Shown here piece by piece: positions 9,953-32,201 of a DNA stretch of 34,189 nt (its first letter is position 1; each line of letters begins with the position of its first letter). The stretch comes from Phycisphaerales bacterium (GTDB lineage: Bacteria; Planctomycetota; Phycisphaerae; Phycisphaerales; SM1A02). The notes under the pieces were generated by a model that was not told the DNA's origin, searched no databases, and worked only from the letters and a program-made list of their open reading frames with translations. Location: assembly GCA_030748155.1 (NCBI GenBank), contig JASMMN010000062.1, forward strand, positions 1-34,189. The letters are read 5' to 3'. The position numbers and the translations under genes are program-made.

Positions 9953-11026
9953 TCAGTTGAGCGTCAGGGTGCGGGCGAAAAAACCTGTTCCGGCGACTTC
10001 CTTGACCATGTCGAGCGTCTGCTCGGTGGCGGCGATTGCTCGGGCGGTACCGGACTTGAGGACTTTGAGTACGACGGCGTCATCTTCATATTGCCTGCGG
10101 CGTTCCCGCATCGGTTCGAGCAACTCGTTGATCGCGTCAGCGACGAGCATCTTCACTTCGCCATCGCCGATGTTGTCGCCTCGCTCGTACCTGTCGCGGA
10201 TGTCAGCCTTCATCGCTTCGTCGTGAACGAAGACGTCGAGATACTGAAAGAGCGGATTCTCATCGGGGTCGATGATGCCCGGATCGGTCGGCTGGCGGCT
10301 GTCCTGACCGGTGTAGATCTTGCCGATCTTCTGCTTGACCTGCTTGGCCGAATCAATGACGTGAATCGTATTGTCGAGCGACTTGCTCATCTTATTCTGC
10401 CCGTCTGTACCGACCAGACGACCGATCTTGCCGACATCTGCAACTGGAATCGGGAATACGCCGCCAAGCGACTCGTGATCTTCATCGAGTGCTTTGTCAG
10501 GAACACCGCAATATGTCTTGTTGAAGCGGCGGGCGACTTCACGGGTGAGTTCCAGATGCGGCACCTGATCTTCACCGACCGGCACACTGTGTGCTCGGAA
10601 CGCCAGGATGTCCGCTGTCTGCCCGACGGTGTAGAGCGGAAAGCCAAACGAGTAGTTGTCCGCGAGTCCCTTGACGGTAAGTTCGTCCTTCAGCGTCGGG
10701 TTCCGCATTACCCGGTTGAAGGGCAGCAGCATCGCAAAGAGGTAGGTCAGTTCAGACAACGCTGGAACTTCACTCTGCAAGAAGATAGCCGCCTTCTCTG
10801 GATCGATGCCCATGGCAAGCGCATCGCGGGCAACCTCGATGGAATCGCGGTGCACATCCTGCGGGGCATCGGCCCTTGTAGTGTAGGCGTGCAGGTTGGC
10901 GATCAGAAAGTAGCAGTCGTGGGTTTCCTGCAACTCGACCCGCCGCCTGACCGAGCCGACCCAGTGGCCGATGTGGAGGTTGCCGGTAGGCGTATCGCCG
11001 GTGAGGATGCGGTGGGTGTGGCTCAT
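9953..11026 (-). CDS. trpS: Tryptophanyl-tRNA synthetase
   Basis: MSHTHRILTGDTPTGNLHIGHWVGSV (HIGH motif), GQNKMSKSLDNTI (KMSKS). Confidence 0.96.
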   Translation of the reverse strand: MSHTHRILTGDTPTGNLHIGHWVGSVRRRVELQETHDCYFLIANLHAYTTRADAPQDVHRDSIEVARDALAMGIDPEKAAIFLQSEVPALSELTYLFAMLLPFNRVMRNPTLKDELTVKGLADNYSFGFPLYTVGQTADILAFRAHSVPVGEDQVPHLELTREVARRFNKTYCGVPDKALDEDHESLGGVFPIPVADVGKIGRLVGTDGQNKMSKSLDNTIHVIDSAKQVKQKIGKIYTGQDSRQPTDPGIIDPDENPLFQYLDVFVHDEAMKADIRDRYERGDNIGDGEVKMLVADAINELLEPMRERRRQYEDDAVVLKVLKSGTARAIAATEQTLDMVKEVAGTGFFARTLTLN

Positions 11027-11075: not shown

Positions 11076-12014
11076 TCACATCACGAAGACCAGATTGCCG
11101 GCATTGAACACCATGTGCATGGTGATCGAGGCCGTCAAGCGACCCGTTTTGGCATATGCCCAGCCGAATCCCAGCGACAGCACGAACAGCCCTGCCAGAC
11201 CATGTGGATCGACCGCCCCGACATGCATCGCCGTGAACACCAGGCTCGCCAGCACGACCGACTGCCACGGGGCTCCGCAACCGAACAAGTTGGCTCGCCG
11301 AAACGACTCCTGCAGCAGGCCGCGGTACAGGATCTCCTCGATCACCGCCGGGAACACGATGACCGAGGCTGCCATTCCCAGCCTGATTGCCGTGGATGGC
11401 TCAGCCTCGAACTGCCGCAGCAACTCGTGCGCCATGGTGGATGGTGGGTCTCCACTCAATGACTGCCACAGCATGCCCGCGATGCCGGCGGCGGCGAGGG
11501 TCATGGGCCAGAACAGCAGCAAACCGACCAGCCCCACCAGCCCCGCGTAGAGGCGGCTGCGGCGGCGGTCTGGGCATACGACGCCACGGCGAGGCATTCG
11601 GCGGGTATCCCCGGGCATCGGCGGATCAACCACCGCTCGCACCCAAGGAAGGCAGCATGCAGCAGCAAGCTGTCCACCCCAACTTGCGAGCATGACCGGC
11701 AACAGTTCGCCGAGCGTGGGTGATTCCGCGGGGTCGATACCCATCACGACAGCGACCACGCCCCCCATCACCGCGCCCGCAAGAACCGCCAACACATATG
11801 TCAGTACCCCCGCACCGGGCCCGAACCGCCAAGGTCGCACGGGCACCCGCCTGAGCCGCCCCCAGCCCGACCCGGCAAAGATCGCCGCTGCGATTCCGCC
11901 CGCCACGAAGGCCCAGAGTGGCGTTCCCGTAGCCGGATCTACCGTTTCTGGCACCGTCAGTTCGGTCGGCGCGGCTATAGTCGCTCCCCACACCCCACCG
12001 ACCGGTACCACCAT
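11076..12014 (-). CDS. CPBP-family intramembrane glutamic endopeptidase
   Basis: EEILYRGLLQESFRR and HVGAVDPHGLAGLFVLSLGFGWAYAKTGRLTASITMHMVFN motifs, multiple TM segments; N-terminus ambiguous (12026, 12014, or GTG 11954). Confidence 0.88.
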   Translation of the reverse strand: MVVPVGGVWGATIAAPTELTVPETVDPATGTPLWAFVAGGIAAAIFAGSGWGRLRRVPVRPWRFGPGAGVLTYVLAVLAGAVMGGVVAVVMGIDPAESPTLGELLPVMLASWGGQLAAACCLPWVRAVVDPPMPGDTRRMPRRGVVCPDRRRSRLYAGLVGLVGLLLFWPMTLAAAGIAGMLWQSLSGDPPSTMAHELLRQFEAEPSTAIRLGMAASVIVFPAVIEEILYRGLLQESFRRANLFGCGAPWQSVVLASLVFTAMHVGAVDPHGLAGLFVLSLGFGWAYAKTGRLTASITMHMVFNAGNLVFVM

Positions 12015-12840
12015 GAGCACGCCCATCACCCTCCAAACCATCGTCGAGCACAAGCGGAACGAGGTTGCATCGCGGCAATTGGAGTGCTCGCTCGAGCAAT
12101 TGCAGAAGGAGGTGGCAGACGCTCCCCCGCCCCGCAACTTCTTCGCAGCGGTCTCAACCGGCAACGGACCCGGCGGCATCAATGTCATCGCCGAGGTCAA
12201 GCGTCAAAGTCCCTCCGCAGGGGTCATCCGTGAGAAGTACGATCCCGTATGCATCTCCCTACAGTACGAAAATGCGGGTGCTGTCGCGATTTCATGCCTC
12301 ACGGATGAACGCTTCTTTGGCGGCTCACTCGACACGATCGCGGCAATCAAGGAAGCCGTCAGAATCCCCGTGCTCCGCAAGGACTTCCTGATCGACCACT
12401 ATCAGATCTGGGAGGCCCGTGCAGCGGGTGCCGATGCGGTCCTGCTGATCTCTGAGTGCCTCTCCGAAGGTCAGCTCATGGACATGCTGATTCTGGCCCA
12501 TGAACTGAGTATGACGACATTGGTCGAGGTGCACGACATGGAACACCTGCTGCGGGTTCGCCGGCACGTGGGCTTCCCACACCCGGGATACATGCTGCTG
12601 GGCATCAACAACCGAAATCTCGCCACCATGAAAACCGACGTCGGCCACACCATCCGGATGCTGGAACTGGTCGAAGATCACTGCGACATCCTCGTAACCG
12701 AGTCCGGCATCAAGACGCCAGCGGACATCGAGCGGATGATTCGGCACGGCGTTCGCCGCTTCTTGGTCGGCGAGACCCTGCTGAAGCATGAGCGGCCCGG
12801 TGATGCGCTTCGGGAACTCGTGGGTACGCCTTGGGAGTAG
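12013..12840 (+). CDS. trpC: Indole-3-glycerol-phosphate synthase
   Basis: VIAEVKRQSPSAGVI, ISCLTDERFFGGSLD, PVLRKDFLIDHYQIWEARAAGADAVLLI, GINNRNL, ESGIKTPADI. Confidence 0.97.
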   Translation: MSTPITLQTIVEHKRNEVASRQLECSLEQLQKEVADAPPPRNFFAAVSTGNGPGGINVIAEVKRQSPSAGVIREKYDPVCISLQYENAGAVAISCLTDERFFGGSLDTIAAIKEAVRIPVLRKDFLIDHYQIWEARAAGADAVLLISECLSEGQLMDMLILAHELSMTTLVEVHDMEHLLRVRRHVGFPHPGYMLLGINNRNLATMKTDVGHTIRMLELVEDHCDILVTESGIKTPADIERMIRHGVRRFLVGETLLKHERPGDALRELVGTPWE

Positions 12841-13614: not shown

Positions 13615-13648
13615 CCGAGGCTCCAAGAGAAGCGTTCTTCTTGTTATC

Positions 13649-13696
13649 ATGGGCGGTCTCGCCAAAGGGGATCCGGTGGTCTCTGTTATGGCTTGA
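13649..13696 (+). CDS. Possible 15-aa leader peptide MGGLAKGDPVVSVMA
   Basis: ATG...TGA short ORF upstream of and overlapping the structured element; no clear Shine-Dalgarno. Confidence 0.2.
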   Translation: MGGLAKGDPVVSVMA

Positions 13697-13740
13697 GGAG
13701 GGGCCAAAAGCCCGCTTGAGCCGCTGTGATCGCCACCGGA
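13672..13740 (+). promoter_or_regulatory. Candidate structured leader RNA / cis-regulatory element
   Basis: TCCGGTGG (13672-13679) pairs with CCACCGGA (13733-13740); inner helix GGCTTGAG (13690-13697) with CTTGAGCC (13715-13722), topped by GGGC-CAAAA-GCCC (13701-13713); 5' UTR of the 13849 gene. Confidence 0.6.
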
Positions 13741-13848
13741 AGGCGTGAAAGCGACGACGACATTTCAGCCTGCTGGGCCCATGCCGCACTCGCTGCGACC
13801 CGCGCCGCCTCCACCCGTCAGACGGATCTCAGGAGTACTTTCCACACA

Positions 13849-14718
13849 ATGACCGCCATCTCTCCCACCACGACCTTTCCACTCGATCGCGCCGCTGATG
13901 GCAGTGCCGTCCTGTGGCTTGAAGCACCACACCAAAGCGTTGTGGTCCTCGATCGTTTGATGATCGCTCGGCTTGAAGCCACGATCGACAGGCTCGAGTC
14001 CGATCCACCATCACTGTTGATCGTACGGAGCCGCGATCAGCGGGTCTGGGTTGCAGGTGCCGACCTCAAGGAGATCAGTACGCTCAGCGACGAGCAACTC
14101 GACGCCTATCTCACCGAAGGTCAGCATACTTTCGGCCGCCTCGCCGCCCTGCCCTTCCCTGTCATCGCCGCCGTCTGCGGCGCCACGCTCGGCGGAGGGC
14201 TGGAACTGGCGATGCACTGTCACGGCATCGTCGCCAGCAAGCAGTCGATGCGCGGCAAGCCCTACCCGATCGGCCTGCCAGAAGCCTCGCTCGGTCTCTG
14301 CCCGGGATGGGGCGGAACCCAGTTGCTGCCCGCCCGCGTCGAACCGAACCTCAGCGTTCCCGCGATTGCTTCAGGCATACCCTTCCTGAGCGAGTCCATG
14401 CCCGAAGGGCTGTGCGACATGCTGGTCGAGGACGATCTGGAGGATGCCAGCCGCGCGCTGGCAGCTTCACTGAACCCGTCCGACTTCCCGCGCACCATCG
14501 CCTGCTGCGATGAGGAGATGCTCCTTGCCGAGGTCGACCACATCCGACACGCCATGGACACCGAGGAAGCAGCCAAGGTCGTGGCTCACTGCGTTGCCAC
14601 CGGCATCAAGGACGGCCTCGCCGCCGGACTCGACATGGAACGCAAAGGACTCGTGTCCCTTCGAAATACCGAACATACCACGCGGCTGTTACAGGCCTTT
14701 CTAGCAAAGAGCGTTTAG
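13849..14718 (+). CDS. Enoyl-CoA hydratase/isomerase (crotonase) family
   Basis: AGADLKEI, CGATLGGGLELAMHCHGIVAS, GLPEASLGLCPGWGGTQLLPARV with both catalytic Glu contexts. Confidence 0.9.
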   Translation: MTAISPTTTFPLDRAADGSAVLWLEAPHQSVVVLDRLMIARLEATIDRLESDPPSLLIVRSRDQRVWVAGADLKEISTLSDEQLDAYLTEGQHTFGRLAALPFPVIAAVCGATLGGGLELAMHCHGIVASKQSMRGKPYPIGLPEASLGLCPGWGGTQLLPARVEPNLSVPAIASGIPFLSESMPEGLCDMLVEDDLEDASRALAASLNPSDFPRTIACCDEEMLLAEVDHIRHAMDTEEAAKVVAHCVATGIKDGLAAGLDMERKGLVSLRNTEHTTRLLQAFLAKSV

Positions 14719-14757
14719 CACCGAAAGTAATCTTTTGGAATCCACTGGAGTGCATTG

Positions 14758-16713
14758 ATGAGTACCAAACCCTCTCTCGCCGACAGTCTCAAGAACGTCG
14801 ACGCCCGAGACATCAAGCAGATCAAAGCGGCCGAAGAGATGCTCGGCCCCGAGCCCGAGGAGATGGGCTTCTGCAAAAACCTCTTTTGGGGCAACATCCT
14901 TGAGCGGGATGTGTTCCCGTATCCCGAAGCCTCCGCCGAAGAAACGGCTCGGTGTGATCAGATGCTCGCCGAACTCGATGACTACCTTGAGAACGAGCAT
15001 CCCGCCAACGAGATCGATCGTATGCAGGATATCCCGTACTGGGTACTCAAGCGGCTCTTTGAAACCGGCGTGATGGGCATGATCGCTCCGCAGGTGTACG
15101 GCGGTGGTGGGTTTGGTGTGACCAGTTACAACCGAGTACTCGAGCGAATCGGCCGCACCTGCGGCTCAACCGCCGTCGTGGTCTCCGCCCACCAGTCGAT
15201 CGGCTGCGGAGCCGTCACGCTCTTTGGATCAGAAGAACAAAAGAAGTACTGGCTCCCGCGGATCTCCAATGACATGCTCAGCGCGTTCTGCCTGTCCGAA
15301 CCCAATGTCGGCTGCGATGCCGGAGGGCAGGAATCTCGCTGTGAAGTCAGCGAGGACGGCGAGTACTACATCCTCAACGGCGAGAAGAAATGGGCCACCT
15401 CCGCCGCCCTCTCGGGCATGTTCACCGTGATGGCCAAACAGAAATTGGTCGATCCACGAACCGGCAAGGAGAAGGACAAAGTCACGGCGCTGATCGTGAC
15501 ACCGGACATGGATGGCATCGACATCTTCAGTTCGAATAGATCCAAGTGCGGCATTCGCGGTACCTGGCAGGCGCGGATTCGCTTCACCGACGTCAAGGTG
15601 CCCCGGGCCAACCTGCTCTACAAGGAGGGACAGGGCCTCAAGATCGCCTTGACCTGCCTGAACTATGGGCGATGCACCCTCGCCGCTGGCATGGTTGGGG
15701 CCGGCGTGTCGGCATACAAGCAGGCGCTCAAGTGGGCACAACTCCGATACCAGTTCGACCGGCCCATCGGCGAATTCGATCTCATTCGTGATCACATCGC
15801 CCAGATGGCGGCCCAGTGCTACGCCATGGATGCCATGCTCTACATGACCACCGGCCTCGTCGATCGCAGCGACGAAGACATCATGGTCGAGACGGCAATC
15901 TGCAAGGTCTTCTGCTCGGAGATGGGTTTCCGAACCTGTGACAGTGCCCTGCAGATCATGGGAGGCGAGGGCTACATGACCGAAGCCACGGTCGAGCGGC
16001 TCTGGCGGGACTCCCGTATCAACCGCATCGTCGAAGGCGCCAACGAGGTCATGCACTCGTTCATCTTCGCCTACGGCTCCAAGCAACTCGGTGAGTACAT
16101 GCTCGGCGTCAAGGCAAATCCCATGAAGCACATGGGGGCCGCGATGAAGATCGGTGTGCAACTTTTCCTCGGCGTTCGCCCACCGGCGCCGAAGATCACC
16201 AGGTTGCACCCGTCGCTACGGCATCACGCGGACGAACTCGAAGCATTGACCCGTGAGTTCAGCCATCAGGTCAAAATGGCCTTCAAGAATCACGGCGAAG
16301 ATCTTGTCACGGCCCAAATGGTGCAGCGACGGCTCAGCTGGTGCTCTGTCTGGCTGTTCGCCCTCACATCTGTGCTCTCCAAATACGATCGAGACATTGA
16401 AAATGGACTCGATGGTGTCTCGCTTGAGCACGATCGGTCCATCGTCGACCATTGCGTCGCCATGGCTGCCCACGAGATTCGCAGCGAGATCCGCGCCTTG
16501 CGAGACAACATCGACACCACGATGCAGCGATGCGCCGACGCGGCGTGGAGCGAATTGCCGTCGATGCCGCACGGCGACTACCACATCCCGGAGATGACGC
16601 CGGTCGAGGAAGCCCGCGGCAAGGGGCGGCCCGTCGATACCGAGAACATCCAACAGTTCGGCGGAGGGTCCATCGCCGCCGAATTCGAGCAGATCTTCAA
16701 ACAAGGAAGTTGA
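14758..16713 (+). CDS. Acyl-CoA dehydrogenase, long form with C-terminal extension (VLCAD-like)
   Basis: AFCLSEPNVGCDAGG, LNGEKKWATSAALSGMFTVMAK, QIMGGEGYMTEATVERLWRDSRINRIVEGANEVM. Confidence 0.94.
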   Translation: MSTKPSLADSLKNVDARDIKQIKAAEEMLGPEPEEMGFCKNLFWGNILERDVFPYPEASAEETARCDQMLAELDDYLENEHPANEIDRMQDIPYWVLKRLFETGVMGMIAPQVYGGGGFGVTSYNRVLERIGRTCGSTAVVVSAHQSIGCGAVTLFGSEEQKKYWLPRISNDMLSAFCLSEPNVGCDAGGQESRCEVSEDGEYYILNGEKKWATSAALSGMFTVMAKQKLVDPRTGKEKDKVTALIVTPDMDGIDIFSSNRSKCGIRGTWQARIRFTDVKVPRANLLYKEGQGLKIALTCLNYGRCTLAAGMVGAGVSAYKQALKWAQLRYQFDRPIGEFDLIRDHIAQMAAQCYAMDAMLYMTTGLVDRSDEDIMVETAICKVFCSEMGFRTCDSALQIMGGEGYMTEATVERLWRDSRINRIVEGANEVMHSFIFAYGSKQLGEYMLGVKANPMKHMGAAMKIGVQLFLGVRPPAPKITRLHPSLRHHADELEALTREFSHQVKMAFKNHGEDLVTAQMVQRRLSWCSVWLFALTSVLSKYDRDIENGLDGVSLEHDRSIVDHCVAMAAHEIRSEIRALRDNIDTTMQRCADAAWSELPSMPHGDYHIPEMTPVEEARGKGRPVDTENIQQFGGGSIAAEFEQIFKQGS

Positions 16714-16714
16714 C

Positions 16715-16728
16715 CCTGGGATCCCAGG
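16715..16728. repeat. 14-bp perfect palindrome CCTGGGATCCCAGG abutting the Shine-Dalgarno of the amino-acid dehydrogenase
   Basis: Direct reading: ...tgacCCTGGGATCCCAGGAGGAGGGcataccGTG. Confidence 0.6.
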
Positions 16729-16741
16729 AGGAGGGCATACC

Positions 16742-17815
16742 GTGCATGTATTCGGGCAGATGATGGATCACGGCCACGAGCGAGTGTGTTTCCATCAGGA
16801 CGCCGACACCGGTCTCCGCGCCATCATTGCAATTCACTCAACCAAACTCGGCCCGGCCCTCGGCGGCACCCGCCGCTGGCACTACGCCACCGAAGAAGAA
16901 GCCATCTTCGATGTGCTGCGGCTCTCCGAAAGTATGTCCTGCAAGGCCGCCTGCGCGGGCCTGCCCATGGGCGGCGCCAAGAGCATCATTCTGCTTCCCG
17001 AGCGTGGGCACCCCGCTACCGAAGCCGAGGCGCGAGCCATGGGACGATTTGTAAACACGCTCTCGGGTGACTACATCGCGGCAGAGGACGTCGGCCTCAA
17101 CCCACAATTCATCGACTGGATGGCGATGGAAACGGACCATGCCATGGGTGGCGAGACCGTTTCAACCGGCGGAGATCCCTCGCCGTTCACCGCGCAGGGC
17201 ACCTTCAACGCGATGAAGGCGTGTCTGCGGCACCGCGGGAAGGATCCAGACTTCGCCGGCTTGAGCGTCGCCGTACAGGGCCTCGGCCATGTCGGAATGG
17301 ATCTCTGCCGAATCCTGCACGGCGAGGGCGCCTTGCTCACCGTGGCCGACATCAACGAAACACGCGTCGCAGAAGCCGTCGCCTCGTTTGGCGCAGACGC
17401 GGTGGATGCCACGCACATCCTGCAGGCCAACTGCGACATTCTCGCCCCCTGCGCCCTCGGAGCGGTGATTGGGCCGGATGAAGTGCGTCGGCTCCAAGCC
17501 GGTATTGTCTGCGGTGCCGCCAACAATATTCTCGTGGACCCTGCACGTGAAGGAATCTCGCTCGCTCAGGAGGACGTCCTGTATGCCCCGGACTTCGTCG
17601 CCAACGCGGGCGGTCTGATCTGGCTGGCCGGACTGCATCTCGGGTACAGTCGCGAAGAACTGGACCTCCGCAATGAAGCCATCGAAGAGACGACTCTGGA
17701 AATCCTCGACGCAGCCGCCGATTGCCCATCAACGCATCACGCGGCCATTGCTGTAGCGGAGTGCCGATTTGCGGCAGGACCAACCACCGGGAAGGAGCCC
17801 ATGCATGCCAGTTGA
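16742..17815 (+). CDS. Glu/Leu/Phe/Val dehydrogenase family, leucine/valine dehydrogenase-like (GTG start)
   Basis: LGPALGGTRRWHYATEEEAIFDVLRLSESMSCKAACAGLPMGGAKSII; Rossmann VAVQGLGHVGMDL; upstream GGAGGAGGG. Confidence 0.93.
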   Translation: MHVFGQMMDHGHERVCFHQDADTGLRAIIAIHSTKLGPALGGTRRWHYATEEEAIFDVLRLSESMSCKAACAGLPMGGAKSIILLPERGHPATEAEARAMGRFVNTLSGDYIAAEDVGLNPQFIDWMAMETDHAMGGETVSTGGDPSPFTAQGTFNAMKACLRHRGKDPDFAGLSVAVQGLGHVGMDLCRILHGEGALLTVADINETRVAEAVASFGADAVDATHILQANCDILAPCALGAVIGPDEVRRLQAGIVCGAANNILVDPAREGISLAQEDVLYAPDFVANAGGLIWLAGLHLGYSREELDLRNEAIEETTLEILDAAADCPSTHHAAIAVAECRFAAGPTTGKEPMHAS

Positions 17816-18899
17816 TTGCGCATTCGAGATCGCCATTGAACGGGTTTCGATTCTCGATGAACACGGCGTGTTTGATGAGTCGCTTGCGCAGGGTCTCATC
17901 CCTGACGATGACGTGGTGAAGTTGTATCGCCACATGAGCATGTGCCGGCACTTCGACGAGATCGCCTTCAAACTGCAGCGATCAGGCAGAATGGGAACCT
18001 ATCCGGAGAATCGCGGGCAGGAGGCCACCTCGCTCGGTGCTGCCTACGCGCTTGAAGACAAGGATTGGATGGTTACCTGCTACCGCGAGAACGCGGGGCT
18101 GTTCTGGCGGGGTGTCGATCCCGAGAAGATTCTCCTGCACTGGATGGGCGATGAGCGGGGCAATAACATCTCCGTCCGCGCCACGCCCTTGGCAATTCCG
18201 ATCGGCACACAGATGCTGCACGCCGTTGGTTTGGGATGGGCATCGAAGTATCGCGGCGAGGACGGCATTGCCTGCACCTTCTTTGGGGACGGCGCCACAA
18301 GCGAGGGCGACTTCCATGAGGCGATGAACTTTGCAGCGAATCTCGACCTGCCAGTCGTGTTCGTATGTCAGAACAACTCGTGGGCCATCTCCACACCGAC
18401 CGCGATCAACTGCTCGGCCCCCACGCTTGCCCAGCGGGGCCTCGCCTACGGAATGCACTGCGTGCAGGTCGATGGAAATGATCTCTTCGCCATGGTCAAG
18501 GTCATTCGCGATGCAGCAACCCGCGCCCGCACCGAGAGCAGGCCGACCTTCATCGAAGCAATTACCTATCGGCTCGGTGATCATACGACAGCAGATGACG
18601 CCCGTCGTTACCGCGATCAGGACGTCGTGGACGAATGGTCTGCGAGAGACCCCATGATCCGGCTGCGAAAGTGGCTTGAGCAGAGGGATCTCTGGGACGA
18701 AGGCCGGGAGCAGGCCTTGCGAACGGAGAATGAGATCTATGTCAAGGGTGTGGTCGAGCGGGCGGGTGGTATCGAGCCACCGACCACTGACGACATGTTC
18801 GCCTGGATGTACTCGGAAATACCGCCCGTACTCGATCTCCAGCGTCGCACACTTCGCACAAGCAGCCTTGGACAGGGCATCGACGGATCTGGATCCTGA
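17805..18899 (+). CDS. 2-oxoacid (likely branched-chain) dehydrogenase E1 alpha subunit
   Basis: GDGATSEGDFHEAMNFAANLDLPVVFVCQNNSWAISTP TPP motif; overlaps the 3' end of the previous gene. Confidence 0.92.
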   Translation: MPVDCAFEIAIERVSILDEHGVFDESLAQGLIPDDDVVKLYRHMSMCRHFDEIAFKLQRSGRMGTYPENRGQEATSLGAAYALEDKDWMVTCYRENAGLFWRGVDPEKILLHWMGDERGNNISVRATPLAIPIGTQMLHAVGLGWASKYRGEDGIACTFFGDGATSEGDFHEAMNFAANLDLPVVFVCQNNSWAISTPTAINCSAPTLAQRGLAYGMHCVQVDGNDLFAMVKVIRDAATRARTESRPTFIEAITYRLGDHTTADDARRYRDQDVVDEWSARDPMIRLRKWLEQRDLWDEGREQALRTENEIYVKGVVERAGGIEPPTTDDMFAWMYSEIPPVLDLQRRTLRTSSLGQGIDGSGS

Positions 18900-18919
18900 C
18901 CCGGAAAGGCGCACGCACC

Positions 18920-19888
18920 ATGGCAAACCTCACACTTGTACAGGCCATCAACCTCGCCCTGAGTCAGGAAATGGAGAAGGACGATCGTGTGATGCTGATG
19001 GGTGAAGACATCGGCATCAACGGTGGCGTCTTCCGCGTAACCGAAGGACTGCATGAGCGATTCGGATCTCGCAGGGTCGTTGACACGCCGCTTGCCGAAT
19101 CCGGCATCATCGGCACTGCCATTGGACTTGCGATGGGCGGTCTGCGCCCCGTTCCTGAAATCCAATTCGAAGGTTTCCTCGCCCCCGCCTACGATCAAAT
19201 CTGCACACACGCCGCCCGCATGCGATCGCGGACCCGCGCGGGTCTCACTGCGCCGCTGACGATCCGCGTACCGGTCGGCGGCGGCATCCACGCCCCTGAA
19301 CTGCACAGCGACAGCCCCGAAGCGATCTTTACGCACAACCCGGGCATAAAGGTCGTCATGCCGTCTTCGCCGTATGACGCAAAGGGTCTGCTAACCAGCG
19401 CGATCCGCGACCCGGACCCGGTGATCTTCTTCGAGCCCAAGCGTATCTACCGGGCCTTCCGCGAGGAGGTACCCGAGGACGAGTACACCCTGCCTATCGG
19501 CAAGGCTCGCGTCGTCCGCGAAGGATGTGAAATGACGATGGTCTCGTGGGGTGCCACGGTCGTGCAGTGCATGAACGCGATCGAGGCATCGGGACGCGAT
19601 ATTGAACTCATCGACCTTCGCACCATCAATCCGTTTGATATGAACACGGTCGCCGCGTCGGTCTGCAAGACCGGCCGCGCAGTCGTCGTGCACGAAGCTC
19701 CGATGAGTTGTGGAATCGGCGCCGAACTCTCGGCTCGTATCATGGAGCAGTGTTTCTTGCGCCTCGAAGCTCCGGTTCAGCGAGTGACCGGCTTCGATAC
19801 GATCATGCCATACTACAAACTCGAACTCGACTACATGCCGGACGCCGAGCGAATCGGCAAGGCGATCAGTGAAACTGCGGCCTACTGA
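18920..19888 (+). CDS. 2-oxoacid (likely branched-chain) dehydrogenase E1 beta subunit
   Basis: MLMGEDIGINGGVFRVTEGL, VDTPLAESGIIGTAIGLAMGGLRPVPEIQF, LIDLRTINPFD. Confidence 0.94.
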   Translation: MANLTLVQAINLALSQEMEKDDRVMLMGEDIGINGGVFRVTEGLHERFGSRRVVDTPLAESGIIGTAIGLAMGGLRPVPEIQFEGFLAPAYDQICTHAARMRSRTRAGLTAPLTIRVPVGGGIHAPELHSDSPEAIFTHNPGIKVVMPSSPYDAKGLLTSAIRDPDPVIFFEPKRIYRAFREEVPEDEYTLPIGKARVVREGCEMTMVSWGATVVQCMNAIEASGRDIELIDLRTINPFDMNTVAASVCKTGRAVVVHEAPMSCGIGAELSARIMEQCFLRLEAPVQRVTGFDTIMPYYKLELDYMPDAERIGKAISETAAY

Positions 19889-19908
19889 AGCCGAGAGGAT
19901 TGCATTCA

Positions 19909-21216
19909 ATGGTGATGAAGCAACCAGATGATCGATCGCACTTCCTGCTGCCGGACCTCGGTGAGGGCGTGACCGAGGCCGAACTGATCAGTTGGAAGGT
20001 TTCACCGGGCGATATGGTCAAGGAGCACCAAACGCTTGCCGAGATGGAAACGGACAAGGCACTCGTCGAAGTGCCGAGCCCGTGGTCCGGGACAATCAAG
20101 GAACTCAACGGCAACGTCGGTGACATCATTCTGGTTGGATCGGCGTTGGTGACGTACGACATCGGCGATGCGGCCCCAGAGTCGGTTGCTGCAGAAGTCA
20201 TTGATGTCGCTGCTCGCGAGGATGCTGGCACGGTTGTCGGCAGTGTCAGCGAAGCACTCTCTGTGCCTCCCGGCTTTCATCGGAAACCCGAAACACCTAC
20301 AGCCTCTCCCACGGACGATCGTTCGCTGGCCACACCATCCGTTCGCCGCATTGCCCGCGATCTGAATGTCGACATCGATGTTGTCTCTGGAACAGGCCGT
20401 GGCGGCCGCGTCACGGCCTCGGACATTCAATCGCATGTGGAAGGGCCTGCCGCCATCACTCCGATCTCGTCTCCCGCTCAGGAAGAAATCGCAATCGCCA
20501 CACGGGTTGCGCAGCCCATCGAAGGCATTTCCGAGCGGATCCCATTCCGAGGTGTCCGGCGAAAGATCGCCGAAGCGCTGCAGCACTCACTGCGGACGGC
20601 CGCTCACTTCTCCGTAAACGAAGAGGCCGACATCACCGACCTAGAGAAGCGACGCAAGGGCCTTGAAACACTGCTCGGCCGCCGAATCAGTCCGCTTCCT
20701 TTCGTACTGGCTGCCGTGTGCAAGGCCCTTCGAACGCATCCACGGATGAATTGCACGGTGGATGACTTCGTCGAAGAAATCCAGATTCGAAGCATCGTGA
20801 ATCTCGGCTGCGCAGTGGATACTGATCACGGACTCATGGTCCCGGTTGTGAAGAACGCCGACGCACTTGGTCTCGTGCAACTCGCCGACCGCGTCTCGGA
20901 ACTTGCCAAGGAATGCCGTGATCGCACGATCGACCGTGAGGATCTCAGCGGTGGCACGTTTACCGTCTCGAGCGTCGGCAACTGCGGCGGCATGTTCACG
21001 ACACCGATCATCAACTACCCGGAAGTAGGCATCCTTGGTGTCGGACGTGCCCGCGAGCAGGTGCTGACCAAAGACGGCGCCTTCTACGCTGGCTTTGTGT
21101 TGCCCATGAGCCTCTCGTGCGACCACCGCGTCGTAGACGGTGCCGAAGCGGCCAGATTCCTGACGACGATCAAAGGACTTCTGGAAGCACCAGAGCATAT
21201 CCTGCCGACCGTTTGA
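19909..21216 (+). CDS. Dihydrolipoamide acyltransferase E2 component
   Basis: Lipoyl domain LPDLGEGVTEAELISWKVSPGD...METDKALVEV; E3-binding ATPSVRRIARDLNVDIDVVSGTGRGGRVTASDI; catalytic SCDHRVVDGAEAARF. Confidence 0.94.
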   Translation: MVMKQPDDRSHFLLPDLGEGVTEAELISWKVSPGDMVKEHQTLAEMETDKALVEVPSPWSGTIKELNGNVGDIILVGSALVTYDIGDAAPESVAAEVIDVAAREDAGTVVGSVSEALSVPPGFHRKPETPTASPTDDRSLATPSVRRIARDLNVDIDVVSGTGRGGRVTASDIQSHVEGPAAITPISSPAQEEIAIATRVAQPIEGISERIPFRGVRRKIAEALQHSLRTAAHFSVNEEADITDLEKRRKGLETLLGRRISPLPFVLAAVCKALRTHPRMNCTVDDFVEEIQIRSIVNLGCAVDTDHGLMVPVVKNADALGLVQLADRVSELAKECRDRTIDREDLSGGTFTVSSVGNCGGMFTTPIINYPEVGILGVGRAREQVLTKDGAFYAGFVLPMSLSCDHRVVDGAEAARFLTTIKGLLEAPEHILPTV

Positions 21217-23306: not shown

Positions 23307-25838
23307 TCAAGTGGGGTCGGGGTTGTTGATCAACCACTCCAACAGTTCCTCGAACGTATCGATACCCGGGGGCCATGTACTTTCATCACCGGGATCGAAG
23401 GTGTCCCAGAAGTCGTCCGGAAGACCGCCAGAGCCACCGCCACCGTCATCGCCGCCACCGCCGCCATCGCCGCCATCGCCGCCGCCATCGCCGCCGCCAT
23501 CGCCGCCACCGCCGAACGGGTCGCCTCCGCCGCCACCACCGTCGCCACCGCCACCGTCGTCTTCACCACCAACGCTGTCATCACCCTCATCCGGCAACGG
23601 CTGCAAACTCGGTGTTGAATCATCCACCACGCCAGTCATGTCCACCACACGGTATCCGCGCAGGACGTGTGTGGAGACATCAGCGACAGCAGTACGATCA
23701 GCGAGTGAGGCGATCTGCAATTCGATCGAGTGCTGAACAAATTCCGGAAGATCTCCGAGCAACTGAGTGGCATGAAGCGGATCAAGCATGTAGCCGACAA
23801 GTGCAGTGGAGCCTTCAAGCAGGTCTTCTACCTGATCGATCAGTCCGGGAACATCCACATCATCGGCATCTGCAAACTCATCCAAGAGCGATGTCAATGA
23901 GGACAACTCGTCACTGTCTGGTGGCGTTGCAGCCGTCGCCCGAGCACCAAGTTCGATCAAGGCTCCTTTTTTTGTCCCAACAGTGATCGTGCCAGTAGAT
24001 CCATGAATCACCGGGGCCCGTGGGCGGCCTCGCTCAAGGATCTCCCGGTCGGTCCAAGTCAGATACCCGCTGTCGAGCAGGACAGTGTCGTCCATCTGCC
24101 AGATACCTAGGCGGCTTGTTGATGTTTCGATCGCGATGATGTCTCCGGCATTTCCATCACCGTTGAAATCGCCAACCCTCCACGGCAGCCAACTCTGTAA
24201 CGGCAGGACAACGGCACCCGAAGAGTCCGTTATGGGAACATCCGAGACGATTGTGGATGGATCTCGCTCCGCATAGTCCACCGCTACAAAGTGACGGGTG
24301 CCACCGCGATTCCGCCACAGGATTCGATCATTCTCGCCAACAATGCCTGGCAGAACGACCCATGGTCGCCAAGCCCAGCTACGCGTCTGCCCGTTCCCCG
24401 TGATCCAAACGTCATCACCAACGGAGCCGGGGGCCGATGGATCGATATCCCAGACAGCAAGTGAGCCGGTATCTGGATCCCACCAAATCAAATCCCTTGC
24501 ACGATCGCCATTCAGATCAGCCAGTTTCCATGGCTTCCAGCCGAGGTCTGGCGGGTCAAGTTCCAGATTTTCAACTCTGTGCGCACCCTCCATGATCCAA
24601 AGTTGCATCCGATGGCTTTGCGCATCGTTCGCGGATCGTCTCCACAGAAAGTCGAGATCTCCATCCCCATCGACATCTCCAGGATAGGTGTGCCATTCTC
24701 TGCCTATCAAACTGACGGGTGAGCCATCAGGGTCGGTCAACACCACACGACCGGTGACATCACCAAGGGGCTGATCGTCGGCGTCCAAATCCTCCCAGAG
24801 CACCGCCTGTAGATCGACATCGAAATCAAGACCGCCGACGGCCATCGCTGGTGGAACGACATATCCACTTCCGGGATTCACGATGGTCCCGCCATTGATT
24901 GGACCCCTTCGGATCATGCGGTACGCAAAATTCTCACCATCGCCCTGTGGCGTCAGAATCGGGTCGCTTGTGTACCCACTGCCGCCTGCATTTGGATTCC
25001 CGGGAGCGAACAACACTCTGTCAATGGCACCAGCCAGAAAAGCCCGCAGTTCAAGTCCGGATCCTTGCTCGGGGGCAGGAAGTACGGTGAGCGCCGGAGT
25101 GTCGATGAAGTCGGAACCACGTTCGGCAATATCAACTCGATCTACTACACCCTCGGCGTTTACGTAGGCGATTCCCGCAAACGGATCCCCAGTGTGTCCA
25201 AGCAGATTGGCGTTGAGTACCGCCAATTCAGCGCCGGGTTCATACCCGCTGCCCCCATTGATAATGACGACCTTTCGCACTTCGCCAGGCGTCCCAGCCA
25301 ACGTCGAGTACAGAAGATCAAGCCCCGACCCATCGGTGCCAGTCTCATCGATATCGAAATACCCTATTCCGGTATCGTGGTAGCCATACCCACCATCAGT
25401 CACTTCGATCTCGATGACCGGCCCGGTGATATCGAATGATGCCTCAAATCCCTGTCCGCCAGTCCCCCAATGGTCGACGATGGCAATCCGCTCGTCGGCT
25501 GCATTTTCATAGATGGTTTCGTCGTCTATCACATTGATAGCGCCGATCGTGCCCTCTCCGAAAAACACCCCGCCGTCGGCATTCAGATCCGCAGGCGTCA
25601 ACAGGCGATCTACACCGTCGTGCATGTACAGAATGACGACCTCTCCAGTGCGGGTATCGCGGTACAACGCGTCTGGATTGCCATCCGAAGTCGGATCATC
25701 AGCAGAGGCACCAAAGTCACCGACGTGCTCCATGACATGCTCACCAAAGGCAGGTGTGCCCACGAGCATGATGCCGGTAACCGCCGCCAATCGGCAAGAA
25801 CCGGTGAGACCATTGACGATGTTGATGCAAACATTCAT
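23307..25838 (-). CDS. Large secreted protein with GSGY-type repeats, FG-GAP/VCBS-like repeats, Gly/Asp-rich linker and short C-terminal tail
   Basis: Signal peptide MNVCINIVNGLTGSCRLAAVTGIMLVGTPAFG; repeats INGGSGYEPG, NAGGSGYTSDP, NPGSGYVVPP; DVDGDGDLDFLWRR, ADLNGDRARDLIWWD, GDFNGDGNAGDIIAI. Confidence 0.85.
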   Translation of the reverse strand: MNVCINIVNGLTGSCRLAAVTGIMLVGTPAFGEHVMEHVGDFGASADDPTSDGNPDALYRDTRTGEVVILYMHDGVDRLLTPADLNADGGVFFGEGTIGAINVIDDETIYENAADERIAIVDHWGTGGQGFEASFDITGPVIEIEVTDGGYGYHDTGIGYFDIDETGTDGSGLDLLYSTLAGTPGEVRKVVIINGGSGYEPGAELAVLNANLLGHTGDPFAGIAYVNAEGVVDRVDIAERGSDFIDTPALTVLPAPEQGSGLELRAFLAGAIDRVLFAPGNPNAGGSGYTSDPILTPQGDGENFAYRMIRRGPINGGTIVNPGSGYVVPPAMAVGGLDFDVDLQAVLWEDLDADDQPLGDVTGRVVLTDPDGSPVSLIGREWHTYPGDVDGDGDLDFLWRRSANDAQSHRMQLWIMEGAHRVENLELDPPDLGWKPWKLADLNGDRARDLIWWDPDTGSLAVWDIDPSAPGSVGDDVWITGNGQTRSWAWRPWVVLPGIVGENDRILWRNRGGTRHFVAVDYAERDPSTIVSDVPITDSSGAVVLPLQSWLPWRVGDFNGDGNAGDIIAIETSTSRLGIWQMDDTVLLDSGYLTWTDREILERGRPRAPVIHGSTGTITVGTKKGALIELGARATAATPPDSDELSSLTSLLDEFADADDVDVPGLIDQVEDLLEGSTALVGYMLDPLHATQLLGDLPEFVQHSIELQIASLADRTAVADVSTHVLRGYRVVDMTGVVDDSTPSLQPLPDEGDDSVGGEDDGGGGDGGGGGGDPFGGGGDGGGDGGGDGGDGGGGGDDGGGGSGGLPDDFWDTFDPGDESTWPPGIDTFEELLEWLINNPDPT
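23426..23571. repeat. Low-complexity GCCGCCATC/GCCGCCACC microrepeat encoding the Gly/Asp linker (minus strand)
   Basis: Imperfect 3- and 9-mer reiteration in the sequence. Confidence 0.85.
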
Positions 25839-25954
25839 ATACACACCTCTCGACAGTGCCCGGTGAGGGTAGGAATCGCAGAAAGCCATCAGCAGAAACC
25901 TCATTCTACGGCCGATCCAACCGCCTGAACGCGGGATAGTACGTACTTCAACCA

Positions 25955-25960
25955 TATCAT
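25955..25960 (+). promoter_or_regulatory. -10-like TATCAT 9 nt before ATG of the rmlB remnant
   Basis: TATCATccatttgacATG. Confidence 0.35.
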
Positions 25961-25969
25961 CCATTTGAC

Positions 25970-28610: not shown

Positions 28611-31600
28611 GTGAACCAGTTCCTGATGTCCTCATTTGCCACCGGAGCCGCCTCCAGCATTGCTGTGGGCGCACCATCGTTGTTCCTTGAGCAGTCTTCG
28701 GGCTGGAGCGGTGGATACACCGCCTCTATCACCATCGAAAACCCTCACGGACAACCCGCTATCGATGGCTGGTCCCTGCAATGGGTGGATGGACCCGCGA
28801 TTGAGAATCTCTGGAATGGCGTTCGATCTGTGAATGGAGACACCACAACGGTCGTCAATGAGTCGTGGAACGGAAGAATCGAGCCAGGCTCCTCAAGATC
28901 AACCGGGTTCACGGCCGAGGGGGAGTGGCCACCTTCGTTTTCAGAACTCTCCTACAACAACATGTCGATCTCCATGACCGACATCACTGAAGGCGGCGAC
29001 GGAAGCGATGGATCTTCAGGTGGCGATGATGGAAGTGGCTCGTCCGAATCACTTGGGTTCCCTGATCTGACGACGTCTGCGGTGGTTGTCAGCCTCGGAA
29101 ACTCCACCTTCTCGCTCACGTCGGGTCAGAACGCTTCGCTCTCCGCGCATACCAACAACCCGGATGTCCTCGGTGTCTCCATCGATGGAAATCAACTCGT
29201 CATACATGCCAAAGCATCTGGATTCGCATCCGTTCGCGTGGATGACGCAACCAGCGGCGATCGTGTCCTGCTTGGTGTTGCGGTTCGAGGAGGCGATGGA
29301 AACATGCCTGGCCTTCCCGACTATCTCGCAGTCGGGAGTGTCAGTGAGGATGTCGAATCTCATCTGGAGTTCTTCCGTGACTTCGGATTGGGTGACACCA
29401 ATCGCCGCGTTGATGTTCGCTACATCTACATCAATGGTGGTCCAATCAATGGTTGGAGAACATGGACCCCAGAAGAAGGCCAACGTGTCAGCAACTACAT
29501 CCGCAACAGCAAGCAACTCGGCATGATTCCTTGTCTCATCTGGTACAACGTGCCCGACGGCGGCGAGTCCTATTGGACCAACAGCGAACATCTCTTTGAT
29601 CCCGAGTACATGTCCGCCTACTGGCAAGATCTTGACTTCATGCTCGACCTGGCCCACGCCGAAACGCAGGATGGCTGGCCCGTCATGATCGTGCTTGAAC
29701 CGGATCTGCTTGGTTACTTTGCGCAGGCCGGACTGAGCCCACATGAGTCATCCTGGTCGGTCGGCATCACTGGTTCGCCTCAGGTCTCGTCTGCCTACAG
29801 CACGATTGGCGTGGGCGGAGAACCCATTCTCGCCGCAGGCGAGGATCCTGCATTCGATAACTCGATCGAGGGGCTCGTCAAAGCCATCAATTACATCATC
29901 GACCGCGATCTGCCTGCCGGCATCGTCGGCTGGCAGTTCAATCTCTGGGCCTCCCCTCCCGGAGGTCATACAGGCGTCGGAGTTCCGGGAACAGGGCTGG
30001 TACACCTCAGCGACACCGTGGGCATCGATGAGGGCCGCGCTGCGATTGCCGCGGAAGCCCAAGCGATGGCCCAGTGGTACGTGGATGCGGGGGTGATGTC
30101 ACACGGAGCAGATTTCATCTCGCTCGATAAATATGGTCTCGACGCAGCAGGCACGACCTCCTCGGCAGCGGACGATCCTGCGTCATCGGCCTGGTTCTGG
30201 AACAATGACCACTGGCTCAATTACCTCGAAGTCGCCAAGTCGGTCGGCGAAGTTGCTCAGGCACCCACGGTGCTGTGGCAGATTCCGGTTGGTCACATCA
30301 ACGAGAGCCAGGTGGTTGACGGTGACGGTCTTGCATTCCCGGTGCTGGAGAACACTCACCAGCACTATGAGGATTCCGCCGGCACCTTCTTTCTCGGAGA
30401 CACCTTTGTATCCAGTGGCGATCGATTCGATCACTTCTCCGCAAACGACTCTGGGGATCCCTTGGTTTCGTCCAGCGGCAATGCCATCACCTGGGGAAGC
30501 CACATGCAGGAGGCAGCTGATGCGGGCGTCGTTGCCGTCTTGTTTGGTGCTGGTGTTGGATCCAGCACACAGGGCACACCTCGCAGCGACACAATCGCAG
30601 GAGATCCGACGGACGGGGGGTGGTGGATCACCAAGGTACAGCGATACTACGAGCATGTTGTACCGCTCTCCAGTCAGGATGGCAGTGGCAACGACTCACA
30701 ATGTGAGCATGATCTCAATGCCGACAATGCTGTTGACATCAGCGATGTCCTGATACTCATTTCCAGCTGGGGTCTTTGTTCGGACCCTACCAACTGTGCT
30801 TCAGACTTCGACGGTAATGGGAGTGTCGATGTTGATGATCTCTTGGTCATGGTGGTGGCATTCGGCTCATGTGTTGCCGGTGGCGGCAGTGACAACGGCG
30901 GTGATAATCCTGGTGGTGGCGGCGATGACAACGGCGACGGTAATCCCGGTGATGGCGGCAATGACAACGGCGGCGGTAGTTCTAGTGATGGCGGCGATGA
31001 CGCTGGCAACAGCGGGGGCGAAACTGACCCTGATGATCGCATCGTGGCCTACTACATCGAGTGGGGTGTTTACGGCCGAGACTACCAGCCTTCCGACATC
31101 CCGGTCGACAAGATCACACACTTGAACTATGCCTTCGCCAATATCGACGATGATGGACGCATTGCCATCGGCGATCCCTACGCCGCCATCGACAAGTCCT
31201 ATCCCGGCGACACATGGGATCAGCCCTACCGGGGCACCTACAACCAGATCAACAACGTTCTGAAAGCGGCACATCCGCATCTCAAGACGCTGATCTCGGT
31301 AGGTGGATGGACGTGGTCCGGCAGGTTCAGTGATGTGGCGCTCACGGAAATTTCCCGCCGCAAATTTGCCGAGTCATGCGTGAACTTTATTCGCACATAC
31401 AACTTCGATGGTGTCGATATCGACTGGGAGTATCCGGTGTGCTGCGGGCTCAGTGGCAACACCTATCGCCCGGAGGATCGCGACAACTACACGCTGCTCA
31501 TGGAGGAACTTCGATCACAACTTGATGCGGCCGCAGCCGAAGATGGCAGCGAGTACTTGCTGACGATCGCGGCTGCAGGCGGCGTCGACAAACTCGCCAA

Positions 31601-32201
31601 CTATGATCTCGTCGGCATCGCAGCCCAGTGCGATTGGATCAACACAATGTCCTACGACTTCGCAGGCGCGTGGGATCTGTCCATCACCAGGCACCACAGC
31701 GGTCTGTATGCCAACACATCGAACCCATCTTCCAATGAGAATGTTCGGCTGCACTACAACACCAAAGGCTCGGTGCAGCCCTGGCTCGATGCCGGAGTGG
31801 ACCCTCACAAAATCGTGATGGGCGTTCCTTTCTATGGCCGGGCGTGGGGTGGCGTGGGCAGCAACAACGGCGGGCTGTTCCAATCCGGTTCCACAGTGCC
31901 GCCCGGCACTTGGGATGACTGGTCCAGCGGTGCCACGGGCATCAATGACTTCAGTCAAATCGAAGAACTCCTCGCCAGCGGCAACTACACCCGCTATTGG
32001 GACAATCAGGCCAAAGTGCCGTGGCTCTACAGCGCCTCACAGCACGGCGGTCACTTCATCTCCTACGACGATGCCGAGTCGATGCAACACAAGGTTGACT
32101 ACGTCGAAGATCTCGATCTCGGCGGAATCATGTTCTGGGAAATCACCGGCGACCGAAATGATGTTCTGCTCGACGTAATTCACGACGGGCTACTTGAATA
32201 A
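28611..32201 (+). CDS. Modular secreted glycoside hydrolase: CBM2-like domain, beta domain, uncharacterised TIM-barrel-like hydrolase domain, dockerin-like module, Gly-rich linker, GH18 chitinase domain (GTG start)
   Basis: SGWSGGYTASITIENPHGQPAIDGWSLQW (CBM2-like); CEHDLNADNAVDISDVLILISSWGLC...DFDGNGSVDVDDLLVMVVAFGSC (dockerin-like); FDGVDIDWEYP (GH18 DxxDxDxE) at about 31407. Confidence 0.93.
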   Translation: MNQFLMSSFATGAASSIAVGAPSLFLEQSSGWSGGYTASITIENPHGQPAIDGWSLQWVDGPAIENLWNGVRSVNGDTTTVVNESWNGRIEPGSSRSTGFTAEGEWPPSFSELSYNNMSISMTDITEGGDGSDGSSGGDDGSGSSESLGFPDLTTSAVVVSLGNSTFSLTSGQNASLSAHTNNPDVLGVSIDGNQLVIHAKASGFASVRVDDATSGDRVLLGVAVRGGDGNMPGLPDYLAVGSVSEDVESHLEFFRDFGLGDTNRRVDVRYIYINGGPINGWRTWTPEEGQRVSNYIRNSKQLGMIPCLIWYNVPDGGESYWTNSEHLFDPEYMSAYWQDLDFMLDLAHAETQDGWPVMIVLEPDLLGYFAQAGLSPHESSWSVGITGSPQVSSAYSTIGVGGEPILAAGEDPAFDNSIEGLVKAINYIIDRDLPAGIVGWQFNLWASPPGGHTGVGVPGTGLVHLSDTVGIDEGRAAIAAEAQAMAQWYVDAGVMSHGADFISLDKYGLDAAGTTSSAADDPASSAWFWNNDHWLNYLEVAKSVGEVAQAPTVLWQIPVGHINESQVVDGDGLAFPVLENTHQHYEDSAGTFFLGDTFVSSGDRFDHFSANDSGDPLVSSSGNAITWGSHMQEAADAGVVAVLFGAGVGSSTQGTPRSDTIAGDPTDGGWWITKVQRYYEHVVPLSSQDGSGNDSQCEHDLNADNAVDISDVLILISSWGLCSDPTNCASDFDGNGSVDVDDLLVMVVAFGSCVAGGGSDNGGDNPGGGGDDNGDGNPGDGGNDNGGGSSSDGGDDAGNSGGETDPDDRIVAYYIEWGVYGRDYQPSDIPVDKITHLNYAFANIDDDGRIAIGDPYAAIDKSYPGDTWDQPYRGTYNQINNVLKAAHPHLKTLISVGGWTWSGRFSDVALTEISRRKFAESCVNFIRTYNFDGVDIDWEYPVCCGLSGNTYRPEDRDNYTLLMEELRSQLDAAAAEDGSEYLLTIAAAGGVDKLANYDLVGIAAQCDWINTMSYDFAGAWDLSITRHHSGLYANTSNPSSNENVRLHYNTKGSVQPWLDAGVDPHKIVMGVPFYGRAWGGVGSNNGGLFQSGSTVPPGTWDDWSSGATGINDFSQIEELLASGNYTRYWDNQAKVPWLYSASQHGGHFISYDDAESMQHKVDYVEDLDLGGIMFWEITGDRNDVLLDVIHDGLLE
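30873..31023. repeat. Gly/Asp/Asn-rich linker microrepeat in the chitinase gene
   Basis: Reiterated GGCGGYGATGACAAC-type units. Confidence 0.75.

Follow-up and report, generated by a model that had tools for sequence, protein, structure and literature searches.

What occupies the 234-nt gap (13615–13848) between two crotonase genes, both matching Pfam ECH_1, in a marine Phycisphaerales genome, and could it head the genes downstream as a structured leader RNA? The initial annotation of the window, by which we mean the whole stretch of 34,189 nt analysed here, had drawn a nested fold in this gap and read it as a candidate riboswitch or attenuator leading a branched-chain/acyl-CoA catabolic cluster. 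We examined the locus in nine species of the window's genus, g1 (marine Phycisphaerales), to which the metagenome-assembled genome carrying the window (G000) belongs, and in a family-wide set of 181 genomes. The idea of a structured leader held: a conserved fold, made of three tandem stem-loops, lies behind a conserved promoter at the head of the operon, as had been proposed.

Gene order and promoter

The two crotonase genes are adjacent in eight of the nine g1 species, separated by 234–332 nt, and the gap of G006, a sister species, is 88% identical to that of the window. Since the order of the genes that follow is retained in g1, the gap heads an operon, whose branched-chain/acyl-CoA substrate is suggested by the protein families encoded. 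NCBIfam labels fall below threshold for most of the operon genes and only E1 alpha clears its cut-off (as pyruvate dehydrogenase). The top NCBIfam match of the dehydrogenase at 16742–17815 is tryptophan dehydrogenase ScyB (295 bits against a cut-off of 600), and the same window encodes an indole-3-glycerol phosphate synthase (within 11692–12840) and a class-I W/Y-type tRNA synthetase (9953–11026, minus strand); the substrate of this dehydrogenase may be other than a branched-chain amino acid.

An N-terminal extension of the downstream crotonase to a GTG at 13726 was ruled out, as G006 has no in-frame start upstream. The leader is not a dispersed repeat either: its sole full-length match in the genome is its own locus, the others being fragments of 14–30 nt. 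Elsewhere in the window, 28611–32201 encodes a 1196-residue protein with an N-terminal CBM_2 cellulose-binding domain and a C-terminal GH18 (chitinase-type) domain, and an 885-residue open reading frame on the minus strand (23307–25964) has no Pfam match at E ≤ 0.001. In the same genome, one crotonase-paralogue match occurs twice, inverted and with identical score, on a single contig (G000:C24:7035–7565, plus strand, and 55620–56150, minus strand), which suggests either that the assembly is artefactually palindromic here or that an inverted duplication took place recently.

Hexamers of the TA[TC][CA]AT type, mostly with an extended −10 TG, were found in all eight g1 gaps, roughly 150–210 nt before the start codon of the second crotonase gene. 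Elements of similar role (GCTAGAAT, GCTATCAT, TTATAAT or TACAAT) occur in the orthologous gaps of genera g50, g61, g8, g5, g14, g55 and g19, so that a promoter-type element precedes the orthologous gene in most of the other family genera that we examined; we found no comparable element in the g47 gap, and no comparable promoter-leader arrangement in g57 or g47. A generic sigma-70 scan of the window did not report the element at 13642–13650, because a good −35 box is absent. Judged from its position, the transcript would start at about 13656–13658, at the base of the first stem-loop.

A fold shared by the leaders of the genus

All the elements drawn in the initial annotation are present in the DNA: an outer stem of 8 bp (TCCGGTGG, 13672–13679, with CCACCGGA, 13733–13740), an inner helix (GGCTTGAG, 13690–13697, with CTTGAGCC, 13715–13722), a cap, GGGC-CAAAA-GCCC (13701–13713), and an upstream mini-hairpin, GGCG-GTCT-CGCC (13652–13663). 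The drawn fold is the minimum free energy (MFE) structure of 13665–13745 (−35 kcal/mol, RNAfold), but dinucleotide shuffles of these 81 nt reach −29.6 ± 3.4 (z −1.6), with 9 of 200 equally good, and the entire 234-nt gap is no more stable than its shuffles (z 0.15). As a structure drawn from one sequence, it is barely above chance, and structure is supported instead by comparison with related sequences.

RNAalifold on the leaders of five g1 species gave a consensus with four helices, P0, P1, P3 and P4, making possible three tandem stem-loops, SL1 (13657–13696), SL2 (13701–13713) and SL3 (13722–13753) (Table 1). Three tandem stem-loops were also obtained by single-sequence folding in each of G001, G003, G004 and G005. 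In SL1, the pair closing the P1 loop changes from C-G to G-C, and P1, which competes with the outer stem drawn earlier, is the MFE pairing in G006, G005 and G008, with an equivalent hairpin in G003 and G001. The stem of SL2 is GGGC/GCCC in the window, GGAGGC/GCCUCU in G001 and AGAGGC/GCCUCU in G003. In SL3, P4 reaches 6–9 bp (P about 0.95–1) in G001, G004, G005 and G007, and its closing strands, CGCU/AGCG in the window, are CGUUGCAGC/GCUGCAACG in G001, CGCUGU/ACAGCG in G004, CGCUGUA/UGCAGCG in G005 and UCGCUGA/UCAGCGA in G007. The SL1 motif is missing from G004, which lacks P1, and from G007. Moreover, the hairpin loops differ in sequence among g1 leaders, in contrast to typical ligand-binding RNAs, where loop sequences are conserved.

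Table 1. Features of the leader and the operon that it heads (window coordinates).
Feature	Position	Strand	Basis
Extended −10 promoter element TGTTATCAT (TATCAT at 13645–13650)	13642–13650	+	Found in 8/8 g1 leaders
SL1 basal helix P0, 5′ strand UCUCGCC, pairing with 13690–13696	13657–13663	+	RNAalifold; 2/6 pairs with double changes, 79% of cells paired
SL1 internal loop, 5′ side AAA, conserved unpaired	13664–13666	+	AAA (or AAU) in 6/8 g1 leaders
SL1 apical hairpin P1: GGGGATC (13667–13673), loop CGGT, GGTCTCT (13678–13684)	13667–13684	+	83% of cells paired
Fold of the initial annotation	13672–13740	+	MFE in window species only; not conserved
SL1 internal loop, 3′ side GUUAU	13685–13689	+	Invariant in 5 aligned species; GAUAU in G008
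SL1 basal helix P0, 3′ strand GGCUUGA	13690–13696	+	Same bases pair with 13715–13722 in the alternative fold
SL2 hairpin P3: GGGC (13701–13704), CAAAA, GCCC (13710–13713)	13701–13713	+	4 bp; 100% of cells paired, 2 pairs with double changes
3′ strand of inner helix (P2), pairing with 13690–13697	13715–13722	+	Possible alternative pairing, excludes P0; 79% of cells paired, 2 double changes
SL3 hairpin P4: CGCU (13722–13725), AGCG (13750–13753), variable inner part	13722–13753	+	95% of cells paired; C-G to U-A double change
Unpaired GACGACGACA 3′ of SL3	13753–13762	+	Same or similar in G006, G005, G004; partly in G003, G001
Ribosome-binding site AGGAG of downstream crotonase gene	13831–13835	+	Predicted mostly paired
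Crotonase-family gene (ECH_1, PF00378), operon gene 1	13849–14718	+	Pfam; gene order kept in genus
Operon remainder, genes after crotonase	14755–21216	+	Order kept across g1 wherever contigs extend
Acyl-CoA dehydrogenase	14755–16713	+	Pfam/NCBIfam
Glu/Leu/Phe/Val-type dehydrogenase	16742–17815	+	Pfam/NCBIfam
2-Oxoacid dehydrogenase E1 alpha	17769–18899	+	Pfam/NCBIfam
2-Oxoacid dehydrogenase E1 beta	18920–19888	+	Pfam/NCBIfam
E2 acyltransferase	19900–21216	+	Pfam/NCBIfam

Comparison across relatives bore out a covarying structure. In the five-species consensus, 85.6% of cells are paired and 9 of 24 pairs show double changes, against a mean of 5.2 in shuffled alignments and at most 3 in slid controls, and the covariation score was 0.371 compared to 0.199 ± 0.040 (shuffled) and at most 0.204 (slid). 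The RNAalifold energy of the five leaders gave z −3.3 against column shuffles and, as G006 and G000 are near-duplicates, each was dropped in turn, with z −5.0 (without G006) and −4.8 (without G000). We also slid 120-column windows along a 4-kb alignment of four species running from crotonase 1 through the leader and crotonase 2 to the acyl-CoA dehydrogenase gene. The two leader windows, 13635–13749 (z −4.09) and 13673–13787 (z −3.39), were the lowest of 95 (next-lowest, −2.14; overall mean −0.27, sd 1.0), and the 3′ half of the leader was at background level. The reverse-strand alignment scored too (z −4.6), as expected since the stems contain few G-U pairs, and the strand assignment therefore rests on the promoter and the direction of the operon.

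A covariance model built on the five leaders (R1) and searched against the 181 family genomes recovered held-out leaders at the orthologous place in G004 (34.6 bits, E 8e-8) and G008 (28.6 bits, E 8e-6), for which a sequence-only model gave 26.0 and 22.8 bits; structure thus adds 6–9 bits, and sequence alone already suffices to find both. R1 does not match G007, and its match in G004 is without P1. Beyond g1, R1 gave only matches at chance level among the 181 genomes, and the element could not be detected there. The best R1 match of this kind, in G122 (E 5e-4), was rejected because the P1 part is missing, and a match at G003:C33:21863 was rejected as a second copy because many pairs are broken.

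The evidence for the fold thus spans 5–8 sequences. A chance fold in a GC-rich spacer, to which the modest single-sequence z values and the unconserved outer stem would point, is very improbable: the covariation tests, the window scan and the held-out matches already refute it for SL1–SL3. Moreover, leaders at the same locus in g8/g5 and g19, which serve as negative controls, showed no structure signal (z +0.2 and +0.4, respectively), so that the structure test does not fire on everything.

The fold drawn earlier fared unevenly in this comparison. Its outer stem is paired in 56% of cells with no double changes (five species); in G006, where the arms are CCCTGTGG/CCGCCCGA, three of the eight pairs are lost, and forcing the stem costs 12 kcal/mol. 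The inner helix (P2) shows some covariation but is only partly conserved, being full length in G000 and G006, shortened in G003 and G008, and either weak or missing in G001 and G005. The symmetric 9x9 internal loop described between these two helices thus disappears, and the conserved internal loop is the AAA/GUUAU within SL1. Of the drawn parts, only the cap covaries cleanly. The mini-hairpin is present in the DNA, but its first bases precede the predicted transcription start (~13657), and the RNA therefore probably lacks it. We therefore rejected the drawn fold as the functional structure, its outer stem being unconserved, without double changes and costly in G006; chance is the likely reading for that stem.

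Nonetheless, the drawn fold keeps the lowest MFE in the window species (−44.8 compared to −38.2 kcal/mol with P1, ~6.6 kcal/mol better) and may form there, with P1 presumably forming first during transcription. P0 and P2 share 13690–13696 and are mutually exclusive; this could constitute a switch, on which we do not build given the species where P2 is weak or absent.

Structured leaders in sister genera

In g61, the leaders of the orthologous crotonase gene from six species (G173–G178; loci L150–L155) gave z −6.3, with none of 300 shuffles as good, and 12 of 35 pairs with double changes against 5.7 in shuffled and at most 4 in slid alignments. These leaders, of 230–260 nt, are closed by a long-range stem, GRUCCGG/CCGGAYC. 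They also contain a hairpin, GCCACC-N4-GGUGGC, which changes to GUCACC/GGUGAC or GCCGCU/UGCGGC, and in all six species the ribosome-binding site is covered by a hairpin. They have no Rfam match, and a model built on them (R3) found only those six loci in the 181 genomes and nothing in g1; R1 and R3 matches outside their own genera or at other genes were at chance level. The g61 leader makes a stronger candidate for a regulatory element than that of the window itself.

The three g50 leaders gave z −3.3. In this genus, the leaders L147 and L148 have hairpins CCTTGCAG..CTGCAAGG and GTCGC..GCGAC / GTGCC..GGCAC around a conserved loop, GGCAGAGCCCAA, 20–80 nt before the start codon. Those of g60 (L209, L211, L212 and L213) show CCGAG-NNNN-CUCGG inside a closing stem of the CGGUGAAC/GUUCACCG type and a conserved stretch, UCAGACU or CCAGACU; their sequences are nearly identical, too similar for covariation. 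The same gene is thus preceded by a structured leader in several genera, and no homology can be recognised between the architectures.

Proposed function of the leader and its alternatives

We favour, with moderate confidence, a lineage-specific cis-acting 5′ leader with three covarying stem-loops and its own promoter, most likely tuning the translation and/or stability of the operon mRNA. Transcription from the extended −10 promoter between the two crotonase genes would produce a ~190-nt 5′ leader, whose first 100 nt would fold into SL1 (with its AAA/GUUAU internal loop), SL2 and SL3, maintained by compensatory mutation, and whose 3′ half would bear the ribosome-binding site. Acting in cis on the operon mRNA, the leader may then affect mRNA decay and/or how readily ribosomes reach the first gene, with the SL1 internal loop as the likeliest recognition site. 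Of these inferred levels, translation control is the most economical guess, given that a conserved hairpin covers the ribosome-binding site in g61 and that the site is mostly paired in g1, itself a weak indication as the pairing partners differ between species.

A passive role, in which the 5′ stem-loops sense nothing and only protect the operon mRNA against decay, is possible though unlikely. SL1 begins at the predicted 5′ end, stems are kept while loops vary freely and the architecture is replaced between genera, all as expected of a stabiliser, which would nevertheless leave the conserved internal loop and the GACGACGACA stretch unexplained.

Many protein-binding leaders are single copy, locus-specific and fast-evolving. 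The leader studied here has these same traits, and, instead of sensing a metabolite, it might be the binding site of an operon product in autoregulation, or of an RNA-binding regulator; the protein partner would be hypothetical, and we regard this reading as improbable.

Somewhat more doubtful is a small-molecule riboswitch, in which the SL1 internal loop, perhaps with P0–P2 switching, would bind a pathway metabolite and open or close the ribosome-binding site. Its place in front of a metabolic operon, the conserved unpaired AAA/GUUAU between covarying helices, the mutual exclusion of P0 and P2 in some species and the covarying g61 hairpin would all suit it. However, no aptamer-like core is conserved outside one genus, in which six of eight members keep the AAA/GUUAU loop and the SL1 motif is missing from G004 and G007; loops are variable, P2 is not general in g1 and no intrinsic terminator was found at the window leader. 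The covarying hairpin that covers the ribosome-binding site of this gene in g61 does resemble translational riboswitches and other leaders with a sequestered site, whereas g1 has no single conserved sequestering helix.

Among known elements, the window gave no Rfam 15 match at the gathering threshold, and no family, T-box, SAM and ilvB-type included, matched the eight g1 loci or 17 other leaders at E ≤ 1. A limited literature search found no RNA regulator of this operon. Like T-box leaders of branched-chain amino-acid genes, the g1 leader precedes an amino-acid-related operon but, unlike them, it has no Rfam match at that E value and no terminator/antiterminator. It is closer to the cis-regulatory motifs found by comparative genomics, such as the 104 candidate motifs of Weinberg et al. 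(2010; PMC2864571), in its covarying stem-loops, fixed site upstream of a gene and narrow taxonomic range, often seen in such motifs; it differs in that neither it nor the sister-genus leaders match any Rfam family.

The ilvB-II motif of the Corynebacterium ilvBNC leader was likewise a predicted, genus-level conserved RNA motif before a branched-chain amino-acid operon and turned out to be a uORF, conserved, rich in branched-chain residues and acting by attenuation on a biosynthetic operon (PMC10272879). Despite this precedent and a short frame reading VVSVMA in both G000 and G006, leader-peptide attenuation is the least credible reading of the g1 leader, which heads a catabolic operon and has no terminator, and no start–stop frame is conserved across g1 or g61 leaders.

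Returning to the favoured cis-acting leader, a broader and distinctly speculative proposal, to which we attach little probability, is that the catabolic operon in this Phycisphaerales family has kept a promoter followed by 100–230 nt of structured RNA (g1, g61, g50 and possibly g60), with an architecture replaced too fast for models to cross genus borders and a preserved function such as branched-chain metabolite sensing with gating of the ribosome-binding site. If true, this would define a new class of regulatory leaders, remodelled rapidly and rebuilt by convergence. In marine Phycisphaerales, an uncatalogued covarying leader precedes a catabolic operon, and sister genera have independent structured leaders before the same gene. 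The breakdown of branched-chain amino acids or acyl-CoAs thereby gains a concrete, testable candidate for control at the RNA level, and the locus lends itself to studying the rate at which leader RNAs turn over while their position stays fixed.
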